The notes under the pieces were generated by a model that did no database searches, had not been told where the DNA came from, and saw nothing but the letters and a program-made list of their open reading frames with translations. This document shows positions 43,224 through 60,685 of a DNA stretch of 64,000 nt, in pieces. The position numbers and the translations under genes are program-made. Every line of letters starts with the position of its first letter. The stretch's first letter is position 1. The stretch is from Demequina sp. NBRC 110051. Lineage in GTDB: Bacteria; Actinomycetota; Actinomycetes; Actinomycetales; Demequinaceae. Location of the stretch: NCBI RefSeq assembly GCF_002090055.1, contig NZ_BBRH01000007.1, positions 186,001 through 250,000 of the forward strand, given 5' to 3'.

Positions 43224-43291
43224 TGGGGCGTGTTTCGCCGCCATCGCGCCTTCGTAGGCGCTGAGAATTGCGCCGCGACCCTAGGAGACAC

Positions 43292-44158
43292 GTGACCCCC
43301 ACCGACTATGAGGCGATCGCGCGCGACGCGGGCCTCGAACGCGTTGGCGCCCGCCCGCCGCTAGGCCAGTACCTGGCCGAGATGTGGCACCGGCGCGCCT
43401 TCGCAACCTCCCTGGCGAAGTTCCGCGTCCAGGCCCAGGTGAGCGAAAACCGCCTGGGTCTCGCGTGGATCGTGCTGCGGCCACTCCTGAACGCCGCTCT
43501 CTACGGCACGGTCTTCGGCATCATCCTGCCGCGAGACACCCGTCCCGACGACGTCGCCTTCGTGCCGTTCGTTGTGGTCGGCGTGTTCATCTTCGAGTTC
43601 TTCTCGAAGTCCTTCTCCGACGGCGCCAAATCGATCACGGGCAATGCGTCGCTGGTGCGGTCGCTGAACTTCCCGCGCATGCTGCTGCCCTTGGCGCAGA
43701 TCATTCAGCAGGTCATCGAGCTGGTGCCCATGCTGCTGATCCTGGCGGTCATCGTGTTGGGCTTCGGTGCGCCGCTCACGTGGTGGTGGCTCCTCGTCAT
43801 CCCGGCCATGGTGCTCATGGCGATGTTCAACTTCGGCATCGCGCTCCTCGCGGCTCGTGTCACGGTGCACCTGCGTGACCTCACCCAGGTCATCCCGCTC
43901 ATCACGCGCCTGTTCTTCTACGCCTCCGGCATCTTCTTCTCGCTCGAGGAGGTGCTCGCCGACCAGCCCGCGTGGATGCAGAAGGTCGCGGAGCTCAACC
44001 CCGTGCACGCGTACATCACCATCGTGCGTGACATCATGCTCGGCGGCCACAACGCCCCGGGCTGGATGTGGGCCGTCGCCGCCATTGCCGGTGTCGTCAC
44101 CATGGCGGTGGGCATCGTGTTCTTCTGGCGCGCGGAGGAGAGGTACGGCCATGACTGA
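43292..44158 (+). CDS. polysaccharide/teichoic acid ABC exporter permease (TagG type)
   Basis: A 288-residue ABC-2 permease with an N-terminal cytoplasmic segment, about six membrane helices and the family pieces SENRLGLAWIVLRPLLNAALYG and LTQVIPLITRLFFYASGIFFS. It would export a completed surface glycan linked to lipid. The GTG at 43292 was chosen because CTAGGAGA lies just upstream and the extra upstream codons have no signal. It overlaps the ATPase gene by 8 bases. The genes downstream make and transfer a nonulosonic acid, so that polymer is the probable cargo (inference). Confidence 0.88.
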   Translation: MTPTDYEAIARDAGLERVGARPPLGQYLAEMWHRRAFATSLAKFRVQAQVSENRLGLAWIVLRPLLNAALYGTVFGIILPRDTRPDDVAFVPFVVVGVFIFEFFSKSFSDGAKSITGNASLVRSLNFPRMLLPLAQIIQQVIELVPMLLILAVIVLGFGAPLTWWWLLVIPAMVLMAMFNFGIALLAARVTVHLRDLTQVIPLITRLFFYASGIFFSLEEVLADQPAWMQKVAELNPVHAYITIVRDIMLGGHNAPGWMWAVAAIAGVVTMAVGIVFFWRAEERYGHD

Positions 44159-56637: not shown

Positions 56638-57751
56638 CCTCCACGGGTAGGCCCACGAACTCGCCATAGGGCTCGAAAGCCTTCTGAGCCGCCGCACGCT
56701 CGCGTGTCCCCAGCCTCACGAGCGGCTCGACCTCGACCACGCACCGCGTCGCCTTCAGCGACCGCTTCCACGTGCCGACTACGCGGCCGGCGCGCACCAG
56801 CGTCGCGCGGAACACGCCGTTGCTCCCCGGCACGACGGCGTCCAGGTGGCCGTCGTCCAGGAACGCCGAGCGGTCCCCGTAGCCCAGCATGTACTCGTCG
56901 AAGCCCGGCGGGATGACCCAACCCCCGGCCGGTGCGACCCCTCCGGCGAGCGACGCCGCCACGTCACCCGACACGAGCATGGGCCCGTCCTCCGTCGCGA
57001 CCTCGACCACGTCCTCACCGGCCCCGACCACGCCCGCGCGGCAGTCGCGCACGCCCAGGCCCGTCCACCGCGCCAGGTCCTTCACGTTCACGGGGCCGTG
57101 GGAGCGCACGTAGCGCCGAGCGATCTCGGCGAGCGCCTCTTCGTGGCCGAGGTCGCGCTGGTGCGGCGCCCACTCGTCGAGCAGCACGAACGTCTGCTCC
57201 TTGCCGACGTTCGGGGCGATGCAGGTCAGCCCCACCTGGGAGGCGTACCAGAGCAGGTGGTAACCCACCTGTCCCGGCGCCTCGATGCCGGCCGCCGCGA
57301 CGGCCTCGAGGCACGCGGCGCGGGTGAGTCGACCCCCGCCGGCGAGGGCCTCTACCAACGCCGCGTTGGATCGCGTCACGGTGTCCTCGTCGATCCCCAA
57401 GAAGGCACGTCGCCTGGCCGCATCGCGCAGGGGTTTGACGCCCATCAGGGTGAGCATCCAGCGGGCATCGGCGGACGGCACCAGGTGGACCGTGCCGCGC
57501 ATAGGCCAGGTGCGCAGCGCCTCACGCCGTTCGAGCGCTGACTCGACCACCGCCTGGGTGACGGAACCTGGTGGCCCGGCCGTGGCATCGGCCGCCTGCA
57601 GTCGCATCCCGAGCGACCACAGGCCGCTCGAGAGATCCTGCGCCTGCATGGCCCCGAACCACGTCACGGCGTCCCCGACCGACGCGAACCGCTCGCCGTG
57701 CAGGCGCAGGGCCCTCATGCGCAGGGACTGGATCTCGGGACGCGTGAGCAT
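56621..57751 (-). CDS. winged-helix DNA glycosylase-like protein (AlkX/AlkZ, YcaQ family)
   Basis: A 376-residue protein of the HTH_42 family. The N-terminal region has TWFGAMQAQDLSSGLWSLGMR with the QxQ motif used by AlkZ/AlkX glycosylases to unhook bulky or crosslinked DNA adducts, and further RTWPMRGTVHLVPSADARW, LTRAACLEAVAAAG, VNVKDLARWTGLGVRDCRAG and a C-terminal VIPPGFDEYMLGYGDRS typical of the family. The minus-strand TAGCGT box ends 6 bases before the ATG at 57751, giving a leaderless mRNA that shares its -10 region with the divergent uORF promoter. Confidence 0.82.
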   Translation of the reverse strand: MLTRPEIQSLRMRALRLHGERFASVGDAVTWFGAMQAQDLSSGLWSLGMRLQAADATAGPPGSVTQAVVESALERREALRTWPMRGTVHLVPSADARWMLTLMGVKPLRDAARRRAFLGIDEDTVTRSNAALVEALAGGGRLTRAACLEAVAAAGIEAPGQVGYHLLWYASQVGLTCIAPNVGKEQTFVLLDEWAPHQRDLGHEEALAEIARRYVRSHGPVNVKDLARWTGLGVRDCRAGVVGAGEDVVEVATEDGPMLVSGDVAASLAGGVAPAGGWVIPPGFDEYMLGYGDRSAFLDDGHLDAVVPGSNGVFRATLVRAGRVVGTWKRSLKATRCVVEVEPLVRLGTRERAAAQKAFEPYGEFVGLPVEVSWGS

Positions 57752-57757
57752 CAGGCC

Positions 57758-57767
57758 ACGCTAGCCT
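57758..57767. promoter_or_regulatory. overlapping divergent leaderless -10 boxes
   Basis: ACGCTAGCCT contains TAGCCT on the plus strand (57762-57767), 6 bases before the uORF ATG at 57774, and TAGCGT on the minus strand (57758-57763), 6 bases before the glycosylase ATG at 57751. The two boxes share the central TA, so both promoters are packed into 10 bases. Confidence 0.65.
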
Positions 57768-57773
57768 CGCCCT

Positions 57774-57800
57774 ATGACATCGGCGAGGGACGAGGGATGA
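57774..57800 (+). CDS. leaderless 8-codon upstream ORF coupled to the DUF2332 gene
   Basis: ATG ACA TCG GCG AGG GAC GAG GGA TGA encodes MTSARDEG. Its ATG sits exactly 6 bases after a TAGCCT box, and its stop overlaps the start of the DUF2332 gene (ATGA at 57797-57800). The GAGGGACGAGGG inside it is the ribosome site of the main gene. It looks like a leader peptide controlling or feeding reinitiation; the sequence has no repeated codons pointing to amino-acid attenuation. Confidence 0.5.
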   Translation: MTSARDEG

Positions 57801-58834
57801 GCCTCGAGGACTGGACGGCGCGTGAGCCGGACGACCTCGAGGCCGTCGCGGCCGAGGCGCGCCGGTGGGCAGACAGCGCCGCCGACTCCCCGCTGTACCG
57901 GCTCTTCGCGCTGTCGATCGCCGAGGATCCGGACATGCTCGCCGTGCTCGCGCGCATCCCCGGCGTGCCGCCGATGAACCTCCTGCTGGGCTCCGTCAAG
58001 CTCCACCTCAGCGCCGGCGATCCCCTCGCCGCCTGGTACCCGCACCTTGCGCCGCGGCCGCTCGCGCCGTCCCGCGAGGCGTACCTCGCCCTACGCTCGC
58101 ACGTCCTCGAGACGGCCGATGCCGTGGTCGCCCAGGCGAGCGGGCGGCGGACCCAGACCAACGAGACCGGACGCGCCGCCGTGTTGTTGCCCTGGGTCGC
58201 TGCCTTCGCGGGGGACGAGCCCGTGCACGCCATCGATGTGGGGGCATCGGCCGGGCTCAACCTCGGCCTGGACCGCTTCTCGTACCGCTACACCTGGGAG
58301 GGCGGCGCCACCACCCTGGGTCGCGGCGCGCCCACCCTCGAGTGTGAGTGGCGCGGCGACGGACCACCCCTGAGCGCGCTGCCCATGCTCGCGAGCCGCA
58401 CCGGCATCGACATCCATCCCGTCGACGCGGCCGATCCCGACCAGGCCGCGTGGCTCGAGGCGCTCGTGTGGCCCGAGCATCAGGATCGCCTGGAGCGCCT
58501 GCGCGCGGCCATCGAGACGCGGCGCGACATCGACGTGGCGATGATCGCGGGAGACGCGGCGCAGGTGCTTGCGGAGGTCGAGGCGGGCCTACCGCCCGGG
58601 CCCCTGGTGATCTGGCACACGGTCGCGCTCTACCAGGCGCCGCCGGAGGTGCAGGAGCGGATCGATGCCGCCGTCGTGGGTATTGCCCGGCACCGGCGGG
58701 TTCTGCGACTCGGAATGGAGCCCGTAAGAGGACTCCCCGACGTGCAGGTGCGCGTGGGGCCGTCGTTCGATGCGGCCCGCACCGTGGCCACCGCGCACGC
58801 GCACGGGAGGTGGGTAGAGCCCGCGTACCCTTGA
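57797..58834 (+). CDS. DUF2332-family protein
   Basis: A 345-residue protein of the actinobacterial and proteobacterial DUF2332 family, recognised from PLYRLFALSIAEDPDMLAVLA, ETADAVVAQASGRRTQTNETGRAAVLLPW, AIDVGASAGLNLGLDRFSYRY and LVIWHTVALYQAP. The IDVGASAGLNL glycine loop resembles an S-adenosylmethionine site, so a methyltransferase-like fold is possible (inference). The function is unknown. The ATG at 57797 overlaps the stop of a leaderless uORF. The 14-base motif at 58114-58127 is read as ADAV. Confidence 0.8.
   Translation: MSLEDWTAREPDDLEAVAAEARRWADSAADSPLYRLFALSIAEDPDMLAVLARIPGVPPMNLLLGSVKLHLSAGDPLAAWYPHLAPRPLAPSREAYLALRSHVLETADAVVAQASGRRTQTNETGRAAVLLPWVAAFAGDEPVHAIDVGASAGLNLGLDRFSYRYTWEGGATTLGRGAPTLECEWRGDGPPLSALPMLASRTGIDIHPVDAADPDQAAWLEALVWPEHQDRLERLRAAIETRRDIDVAMIAGDAAQVLAEVEAGLPPGPLVIWHTVALYQAPPEVQERIDAAVVGIARHRRVLRLGMEPVRGLPDVQVRVGPSFDAARTVATAHAHGRWVEPAYP
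58114..58127 (+). repeat. 14-base dispersed motif, copy 14
   Basis: Exact copy inside the DUF2332 gene (peptide ADAV in ETADAVVAQ). Confidence 0.85.
58826..58831 (+). promoter_or_regulatory. leaderless promoter -10 of the CopD-CtaG gene
   Basis: TACCCT, inside the end of the DUF2332 gene, ends 6 bases before the ATG at 58838. Confidence 0.58.
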
Positions 58835-58837
58835 CGC

Positions 58838-60685
58838 ATGTCCGTCGACGTCCTCGTCACCCTGACGGGCGCGATCCGTGACATCTTCCTCGGCCTGACG
58901 GCCGGCGCCCTCGTGATGCTCGCCGGGGTCGTGCCCTCCTCGCATCGCGCCGCCGACCGCGCCTCGCAGGTCGCGCGCGTAGCCGCGGCCGTCTGGGCGC
59001 TCGCGGCGGTGGCGTACATCTTCGTCTCCTACGCCTACATCAGGAACGATGCCGTGGCGCCGGAGCGCTTCGTCGAGGAGGTCTGGTCCTTCGTCACGAC
59101 GATCGACCTGGGCCAGGCGTATCTCCAGATGGCGCTCGCGGCCGTCGTCGTCTCGGTCCTCGCGGGATTGGTGCGCCGCCCGTCGACGGCTGCCTGGACG
59201 CTGGTGCCCGTGGTGTGGGCGCTCGGCTGGCAGGCGCAGACCGGGCACGCCGCCGGCGCGACCGACCATCACCTCGCCACCTCCGCGATGTTCCTGCACC
59301 TTGCCGGATCGGCACTGTGGATGGGCGTGCTCGGCGCGCTGTTCTTGATGCGCCGCCCCCTGGGACTCGAGGCCAAGACCGTGGTGCGGCGCAGTTCGCG
59401 GATCATGATCTGGGCCGCGGTTGCGCTGATCGTCTCGGGGATCGCGAACGCCTGGATCCGCATGGAGGGGCCAGCGGACCTGGTCACCACCACCTACGGC
59501 TGGCTGCTGCTGCTCAAGGTGGCGCTCATGAGCGCCGCGATCGCGCTGGCCGCCGGGCACCGGCGCGTGGCGCTGCCGCGACTCACGGACGCGCACGTGC
59601 GCGACCGATTCTGGCGCATCATGACGGTCGATGTCGCGGCAATCGTCGCGGTGATCGCCGTCGCCGCGGTCCTGTCCGGCACGGCGCCCCCGCTTCCGAT
59701 CGTGGCGCTCGAGGACCCCAGCCCCGCCTACTTCCTCACGGGCTACGAGCTGCCGCCCGCGCCATCGTTCGTGAACTGGATCGGCCTGTGGAGGCTCGAG
59801 ATCCTCACCGGAGCCGCGATCGTGGCCGCTGGCGTGGTCTACGTGCGTTGGGTGGTGCGCCTGCGCCGACGCGGCGACGCCTGGGCCTGGTGGCGGACGG
59901 CCTCGTTCCTCAGCGGCCTCGCGATCATGGTGTGGATCACGCAGGGCGGTCCGGCCGTCTACGGCATGGTGACGTTTTCTGGCCACATGGTGTCGCACAT
60001 GATGCTCGCGATGCTCGCGCCGCTGCCGCTCACGTTTGGCGCGCCCGTCACGCTGGCACTCAGGGCGCTGCCGCCACGGCGCGATGGCTCGCGAGGGCCG
60101 CGCGAGTGGGTGCGCGTGATCGTTGAATCCCGCTTCATGGCGGTGATCTCGAATCCGATCTTTGCGGCCGTGAACTTTGCCGGATCGCTGTTCATCTTCT
60201 ACTACACGCCGCTGTTCGAGTTCGCGCTGCGCAACCACGTGGGCCACCTGTGGATGATCGCCCACTTCACCCTCGCGGGCTACCTGTTCGCCAACGCCCT
60301 CGTGGGTATCGACCCTGGTCCCAAGCGTCCCGCCTATCCCATGCGTGTGGTGTTGCTGTTCGCGACCATGGCGTTCCATGCCTTCTTCGGGGTGGCGCTC
60401 ACAAGCTCGGAGGTGCTGCTCGCGCCCACCTTCTTGGGGCTCATGGGCCGCACCTGGGGTCCCGACGCGATCACGGATCAGCAGTATGGCGGCCAGATCG
60501 CGTGGGGGATCGGCGAACTTCCCGTGCTCGCCCTCGCGATCGGCGTCATCATCGCGTGGCGCCTGGCCGACGAGAAGGAGAGCCGTCGCAAGGATCGTCA
60601 GGCGGAGCGCGACGACGATGCGGAGCTCAGGGCCTACAACGAGATGCTGGCCGAGGCCGCCGACAACGACCGTCGGCTCCGCTAA
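58838..60685 (+). CDS. CopD-CtaG fusion: copper uptake and cytochrome oxidase assembly membrane protein
   Basis: A 615-residue membrane protein. The N-terminal half (to about 300) is CopD-like with HLATSAMFLHLAGSALWMGVLGAL and about eight helices. The C-terminal half is CtaG-like (caa3_CtaG) with YGMVTFSGHMVSHMMLAMLAPLPLTFGAP, LWMIAHFTLAGYLFANALVGIDPGPKRP and MAFHAFFGVALTSS, including the His residues proposed to handle copper. The fusion is common in actinobacteria and supplies copper for cytochrome c oxidase. A charged tail of about 45 residues ends the protein. It lies 3 bases after the DUF2332 stop with its own leaderless promoter. Confidence 0.88.
   Translation: MSVDVLVTLTGAIRDIFLGLTAGALVMLAGVVPSSHRAADRASQVARVAAAVWALAAVAYIFVSYAYIRNDAVAPERFVEEVWSFVTTIDLGQAYLQMALAAVVVSVLAGLVRRPSTAAWTLVPVVWALGWQAQTGHAAGATDHHLATSAMFLHLAGSALWMGVLGALFLMRRPLGLEAKTVVRRSSRIMIWAAVALIVSGIANAWIRMEGPADLVTTTYGWLLLLKVALMSAAIALAAGHRRVALPRLTDAHVRDRFWRIMTVDVAAIVAVIAVAAVLSGTAPPLPIVALEDPSPAYFLTGYELPPAPSFVNWIGLWRLEILTGAAIVAAGVVYVRWVVRLRRRGDAWAWWRTASFLSGLAIMVWITQGGPAVYGMVTFSGHMVSHMMLAMLAPLPLTFGAPVTLALRALPPRRDGSRGPREWVRVIVESRFMAVISNPIFAAVNFAGSLFIFYYTPLFEFALRNHVGHLWMIAHFTLAGYLFANALVGIDPGPKRPAYPMRVVLLFATMAFHAFFGVALTSSEVLLAPTFLGLMGRTWGPDAITDQQYGGQIAWGIGELPVLALAIGVIIAWRLADEKESRRKDRQAERDDDAELRAYNEMLAEAADNDRRLR

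Follow-up and report, generated by a model that had tools for sequence, protein, structure and literature searches.

We put the probability at about one half that, in Demequina sp. NBRC 110051, the 45-bp gap between an AlkZ-like DNA glycosylase gene and a divergent DUF2332 gene holds a compact bidirectional promoter, one arm of which feeds DUF2332 through a leaderless, ATGA-coupled upstream ORF (uORF) of eight codons. All coordinates below refer to the window, i.e., the whole stretch of 64,000 nucleotides that was analysed.

The predicted glycosylase gene (HTH_42, PF06224; 56621..57751, minus strand) has a leaderless-type start, with the -10 element TAGCGT (57758..57763, minus strand) situated six bases before its ATG at 57751-57749. 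On the plus strand, the -10 element TAGCCT (57762..57767), which is kept in the four closest species, is followed after six bases by the ATG of the ORF MTSARDEG* (57774..57800), with which the DUF2332 mRNA is predicted to begin. These two distances, as well as the overlap of the small ORF's stop with the DUF2332 start, had been read in the preliminary description, and a script check of the coordinates returned the same positions, with 57749-57776 reading CAT-CAGGCC-ACGCTAGCCT-CGCCCT-ATG. The two opposite-strand hexamers overlap reciprocally, as in bidirectional promoters with a shared -10. Since both have the TA dinucleotide at 57762-57763 in common, the transcription start sites predicted from the spacing, 57751 and 57774, are 23 bp apart. 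A search for a good -35 element on both sides produced at best 3 matches out of 6.

The DUF2332 gene (PF10094, E-value 2.6e-73) occupies 57797..58834 on the plus strand. Its ATG (57797-57799) and the TGA of the uORF (57798-57800) overlap as ATGA, so that an ATG at a predicted 5' end is combined with a TGA lying over a downstream RTG, the arrangement of RTGA-coupled leaderless small ORFs. A Shine-Dalgarno-like CGAGGGA is present within the uORF (57784..57790, plus strand), and the DUF2332 AUG falls into the loop of a small predicted hairpin, CGAGG-GATGAG-CCTCG (57791..57806, plus strand). Leaderless translation of DUF2332 itself from 57774 was rejected, as this ATG is in the wrong frame and the homologous start is at 57797. 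Inside the gene, a glycine-rich AIDVGASAGLNLGLDRF stretch at 58221-58280 may resemble motif I of SAM-methyltransferases. We also observed a third leaderless-type promoter within 1.1 kb: the Caa3_CtaG/CopD-domain gene that follows DUF2332 has TACCCT (58826..58831, plus strand, within the end of DUF2332) six bases before its ATG at 58838 (the arrangement spans 58826-58841), and a similar TACNCT-TGA...ATG order is readable in loci L002, L003, L014, and L017.

In the reading we prefer, the TA at 57762-57763, being self-complementary, would serve a sigma-70-type RNA polymerase as positions -12/-11 of a -10 element whichever way it transcribes. Leftward initiation at or near 57751 would yield a leaderless mRNA for the glycosylase, while rightward initiation at or near 57774 would yield a DUF2332 mRNA that has AUG as its first codon. 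A ribosome could then initiate at the 57774 AUG without a Shine-Dalgarno site, read eight codons, stop at the UGA inside AUGA, and reinitiate on the DUF2332 AUG, thus supplementing a modest Shine-Dalgarno site; the uORF peptide itself is probably not the product of importance. Transcription in one direction probably leaves the other undisturbed at ordinary activity, and no switch is proposed. The promoter steps rest on motifs, spacing, conservation, and the genus-level enrichment of both leaderless spacing and TA-sharing pairs; the start sites, the translation of the uORF, and the reinitiation we infer.

Leaderless-type spacing is a strong signal in Demequina. In the window, TAnnnT occurred exactly six bases before an ATG 7 times, compared to 7 occurrences summed over 13 other distances (0-4 and 8-15). 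In 1.784 Mb taken from four Demequina genomes (G000, the one studied here, and G039, G031, and G009), the numbers of TAnnnT at 6 and at 7 nt before candidate starts were 39 and 33, 40 and 19, 36 and 32, and 37 and 21, respectively. The background at distances from 13 to 40 had means of 3.0-4.8 across the four genomes (4.75 in the first). The presence of the peak in each genome, along with the window counts, indicates that the spacing is a genuine signal.

Divergent combinations of such starts were found as well. The 242 divergent gene pairs of the four-genome sample contained 20 start combinations with leaderless spacing on both sides, and none of the 20 was listed with a common TA. The pairing was incomplete, as it missed two TA-sharing modules of G009 in which one partner gene was not called. 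There were four TA-sharing modules in the 1.784 Mb (the locus under study, its G039 ortholog, and the two in G009); TA sharing is thus recurrent but uncommon.

The glycosylase side of the promoter is the firmer one. The protein matches the PF06224 profile with an E-value of 6.5e-55 over residues 29-365 and carries MQAQD at residues 35-39. The QAQ at 36-38 fits the (Q/H)-aliphatic-Q type of AZL proteins, as that motif is defined in the accessible text of PMC9040887, so that domain and motif both point to an AlkZ-like (HTH_42) glycosylase. Among the 44 Demequina genomes, DUF2332 was present in 26, and in 16 of these 26 loci the AlkZ-like gene lay divergently beside it (within flanks of 1.5 kb). 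When starts were looked for up to 30 codons from the expected position, the AlkZ-like gene had, in all 16 divergent loci, an in-frame ATG or GTG preceded by TAnnnT at 6-7 nt. The predicted leaderless-type promoter and start on this side are therefore well supported, as firmly as sequence alone permits.

Common use of the TA is restricted to close relatives. The block CCACGCTAGCCTCG is identical in L001-L004, which are the locus of the genome studied here and those of the three relatives whose DUF2332 is most similar, although fourfold sites are only 56-62% identical between L001 and L002 (56% and 62% in the two flanking genes) and 51-52% between L001 and L003. With the glycosylase side kept in 16/16 divergent loci and this block unchanged in four species, the preliminary reading of two divergent leaderless-type promoters with a common TA is supported for this clade. 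In the remaining 12 divergent loci, the bases flanking the AlkZ -10 on the plus strand are variable and form no TA-sharing TAnnnT; several of these loci have an independent promoter-like TAnnnT slightly further right, with a Shine-Dalgarno leader. TA sharing probably is a derived state of one clade, which argues against its being necessary for co-ordinating the AlkZ/DUF2332 pair. In L004 (genome G041, completeness 50), the AlkZ-like and DUF2332 genes each align in two pieces in different frames, probably because of assembly errors.

This distribution bears on two other explanations. If only the AlkZ promoter were real, the plus-strand TAGCCT would have arisen incidentally from the sequence upstream of that promoter, and DUF2332 would be transcribed from elsewhere, e.g., from inside the AlkZ gene. 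The contrast between the AlkZ side (16/16 divergent loci) and the TA-sharing TAGCCT (4/16) is in line with such a picture; still, TAGCCTCG does not differ among the four close species, while the same flank is variable in the other 12 divergent loci, and TAGCCT is the sole plus-strand TAnnnT in the 45-bp gap. We regard a single-promoter origin as highly improbable.

The preliminary description had suggested a switch between glycosylase and DUF2332, in which the binding of polymerase in one orientation prevents transcription in the opposite one and expression is reciprocal. One common TA should indeed make simultaneous binding sterically impossible, as is stated for bidirectional promoters in the available portion of PMC12825309, and 16 of the 26 loci retain the divergent pair. 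Yet the pair persists in the 12 divergent loci where the AlkZ -10 has no TA in common with a plus-strand TAnnnT. Moreover, all five E. coli bidirectional promoters that were tested proved too weak at basal level for polymerases to compete, and competition appeared only once one direction was substantially activated (2026 E. coli study, in its accessible part). Because these published basal-level data oppose it, the suggested switch is unsupported and we keep it as an unlikely alternative, although competition between the two directions may occur under regulation.

Returning to the bidirectional promoter, we observed that its geometry recurs in the genus. The exact module CAY-N6-ANNNTANNNT-N6-RTG was found once in the window, twice in the genome studied here, and 78 times in the 44 Demequina genomes, compared to 21 matches for a reversed-pattern control (binomial P 3e-9, a value that treats the matches as independent, which they are not since orthologs are included). 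The divergent arrangement is thus conserved in the four closest species and above chance in the genus, yet without TA sharing in 12 of the 16 divergent loci. A double-leaderless module with the 18-bp geometry (TANNNTA), matched for the number and kind of its fixed bases, showed no enrichment (11 matches vs. 14 for the control), while abutting -10 elements (TATA) were uninformative, with 0 matches vs. 0 for the control in the 44 genomes. In 138 non-Demequina genomes of the order, the excess was weak (179 matches vs. 111), and in several of them control matches outnumbered the real ones.

The flanking ORFs were read for 75 of the 78 matches. ORFs of at least 60 codons were present on both sides in 39 of the 75 and were not in 36. 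One cluster of protein pairs comprised 19 loci in 19 different genomes. In its representative, L054, the Pfam matches (obtained for this locus only) were to a tRNA_edit-domain protein and a small kinase-like P-loop protein; the genes of this cluster diverge across a 22-bp gap, and both -10 elements have the TA in common. Another cluster comprised 6 loci, represented by L051 with a patatin gene and a gene whose protein had no Pfam match.

These recurrences suggest a wider proposal, which we put forward tentatively and consider rather doubtful: that Demequina, and perhaps actinobacteria broadly, use a recurrent 28-bp module (start, 6 bp, ANNNTANNNT, 6 bp, start) in which two leaderless genes share one TA; one gene pair retains it in 19 of the 44 genomes, and one of its arms sometimes carries a small leaderless ORF coupled through RTGA. 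Transcriptional choice would be fixed by the common TA, and the coupled ORF would set the translation of one side, so that fewer than 60 bp would give a fixed expression ratio.

The uORF is less widely distributed than the promoter. It was found in 2 of the 26 Demequina DUF2332 loci, as MTSARDEG* in L001 and MTSARDEE* in L002 (genome G039), both with ATGA, and was absent from the other 24. L003 and L004 lack an ATG where transcription is predicted to begin and have strong Shine-Dalgarno sites instead (-9.8 and -10.3 kcal/mol). The anti-SD energies in L001 and L002 are -6.4 and -4.0 kcal/mol, compared to a median of -3.6 for the genes of the sample and a random median of -2.5. The two species with the uORF therefore have weaker sites than the two nearest ones without it.

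Between G000 and G039, the 45-bp spacer is identical at 42 of 45 positions and the 29-bp leader at 27 of 29; for the leader, the binomial P is 1.3e-5 against the DUF2332 fourfold rate. Given the 56-62% identity at fourfold sites, the leader appears to be under constraint, though not provably as an ORF: the two changes are a synonymous one in an arginine codon and a Gly/Glu replacement in the last codon, and with just two differing sites coding constraint on the uORF cannot be shown. On the other hand, an identity of at least 89% between these genomes was also reached by 2 of the 8 other intergenic spacers compared, so that compact regulatory DNA may commonly be conserved to this degree. (Nine spacers were comparable in all; the one under study scored 0.551 with a different G039 start and 42/45 with homologous starts.) The conservation that the preliminary description had proposed to check is thus partial. 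The ORF itself is confined to 2/26 loci, and within those two its length, its overlap, and 27/29 leader bases are kept.

In both leader folds (G000 and G039) the DUF2332 AUG lies in the loop of a small hairpin, and 4 bp of the hairpin also occur in the G039 fold, but neither leader is clearly more stable than its shuffles (z of -1.61 and +0.17). A fold beginning at the DUF2332 ATG (z of -2.15) was left out, this being coding sequence. Leaderless spacing at the gene's own start was observed in 6 of the 26 loci; hence leaderless expression of DUF2332 is not foreign to the genus.

Could the uORF be incidental to a real bidirectional promoter? Polymerase prefers a purine at +1, and the A could precede TG by chance; DUF2332 would then use its own SD-like GAGG, and what is conserved would be promoter and leader DNA. 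We consider this quite possible. Such an origin is favoured by the occurrence of the uORF in 2/26 loci, by the commonness of short-ORF RTGA overlaps, by the usable Shine-Dalgarno site of L001 (-6.4 kcal/mol vs. the gene median of -3.6), and by compact spacers that are conserved without any uORF. Conversely, the G039 site is weak (-4.0) while the ATG, the frame, the length, and the ATGA are all kept, and leaderless-type short ORFs are in excess only if RTGA-ended, a contrast that is borderline. In mycobacteria, moreover, leaderless initiation requires an ATG or GTG at the 5' end and nothing beyond it, according to the accessible text of PMC4633059.

The counts behind these arguments are as follows. 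RTGA overlaps of short ORFs with candidate gene starts numbered 1267 in the four-genome sample; they are common and, taken alone, weak evidence. Among out-of-frame short ORFs with leaderless spacing, 13 were RTGA-ended on a gene start compared to 5.7 expected, and 10 had other ends compared to 9.5 expected. For RTGA ends the excess is modest (Poisson P 0.006, or 0.03 with two ortholog pairs collapsed on the observed side only), and the difference between RTGA and other ends is borderline (Fisher P 0.054). These counts (13 vs. 5.7) are those of the pooled training; an earlier count on the 1.784 Mb gave 14 vs. about 5.7 and missed the present uORF through its start call, and a still smaller, earlier subset of 264 kb contained 4 RTGA uORFs at distance 6-7. 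The excess agrees with the over-representation of RTGA-coupled leaderless small ORFs reported for mycobacteria in the part of PMC4633059 that deals with them.

A clear parallel to the present locus is L052/L185 (L185:1501-2259), a TA-sharing module with a leaderless-type ORF of 36 codons that is linked through RTGA to a gene for a THAP4-like heme-binding domain. The encoded peptide, probably a membrane peptide, is conserved: of the codon changes, 6 are synonymous and 1 is non-synonymous. Elsewhere in the window, at 43230-43295, we noticed a GTG-started ORF of 21 codons with leaderless spacing (TAATCT, 6 nt) and a GTGA end on an ABC-2 membrane gene; G039 keeps both its length of 21 codons and the overlap.

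A second candidate for a conserved case, the 17-codon RTGA uORF of a DsbD/CcdA-like gene (L059, L175, L178), was set aside, as just 6 of the 30 orthologous loci (the best 30 of 44 genomes) had a leaderless-spaced RTGA uORF, of 17 codons in three and of 16 codons in three. In these loci (L212-L241), within 45 nt before the start, CCCAWCC was present in 25/30 and CGAA just before the start in 30/30, both overlying the uORF. This pair resembles a promoter of the SigK/ECF type, from which the gene would be transcribed almost without a leader. Because these elements are kept more widely than the uORF over which they lie, that uORF looks incidental; the present one could be so likewise, and our confidence in it is reduced.

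If the preferred reading, a bidirectional promoter with a coupled uORF, is true, one TA serves two promoters and both messages open at a start codon, i.e., a minimal length of DNA is used for two genes, while the eight-codon ORF supplements or replaces a Shine-Dalgarno leader. Two published phenomena would be extended to the little-studied genus Demequina, and the genus comparison predicts divergent gene pairs, leaderless on both sides, whose start codons are exactly 22 bp apart. Even then, the locus alone would not explain the biological roles of AlkZ-like glycosylases or DUF2332. Among the literature matches listed, where subscription journals were mostly outside coverage, no paper title concerned double-leaderless bidirectional promoters or Demequina promoters, and DUF2332 appeared in none of the AlkZ/DUF2332 matches listed.

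The founding paper on bidirectional promoters is reportedly that of Warman et al. 2021 (Nature Microbiology). In such promoters, as described in the accessible text of later work by Warman, Grainger and colleagues (PMC12825309, PMC10268837), transcription start sites on opposite strands are 7-25 bp apart, the common spacings being 18, then 10 and 23 bp (PMC12825309). The Demequina locus resembles them in that its opposite-strand -10 elements share bases and its predicted 23 bp is one of the listed spacings. It differs in that both RNAs are predicted to begin with AUG, i.e., to be leaderless; and in Demequina the double-leaderless 23-bp form is enriched while the 18-bp form, the commonest in PMC12825309, is not.

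The preliminary proposal of a leaderless leader peptide coupled to DUF2332, narrow as its distribution is (2/26 loci), describes a plausible arrangement of a documented type. In the mycobacterial RTGA-coupled leaderless small ORFs, the available text of Shell et al. 2015 (PMC4633059) indicates that the linkage is conserved and that the peptide need not be. The Demequina ORF likewise stands at a predicted leaderless 5' end with its TGA over the RTG start of an annotated gene. Unlike those described there, it belongs to another actinobacterial genus, is very short at eight codons, depends on a shared bidirectional -10, and is known here from sequence. The 5'-terminal uAUGs of E. coli mRNAs led by a Shine-Dalgarno site (Beck et al. 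2016, PMC4965119) are similar in that the AUG lies at the extreme, here predicted, 5' end upstream of an SD-led gene; mutation of such a uAUG can raise or lower expression of the downstream gene. Unlike the Demequina uORF, they were studied in E. coli, and RTGA coupling is not their defining feature in the sections of that paper available.

A review of translational coupling (PMC12548453) gives, in its accessible part, the -4 nt NTGA overlap as the commonest, within the most efficient range (-4 to +3 nt), and mentions coupled uORFs briefly. The ATGA of the Demequina locus is an overlap of this kind, with an eight-codon leaderless ORF rather than a full gene as the upstream partner. The 23-bp spacing with a shared -10, RTGA-coupled leaderless small ORFs, and 5'-terminal uAUGs have thus all been published, and the locus is a further example of them and not a new switch; the genus-wide recurrence of TA-sharing double-leaderless modules may deserve attention.
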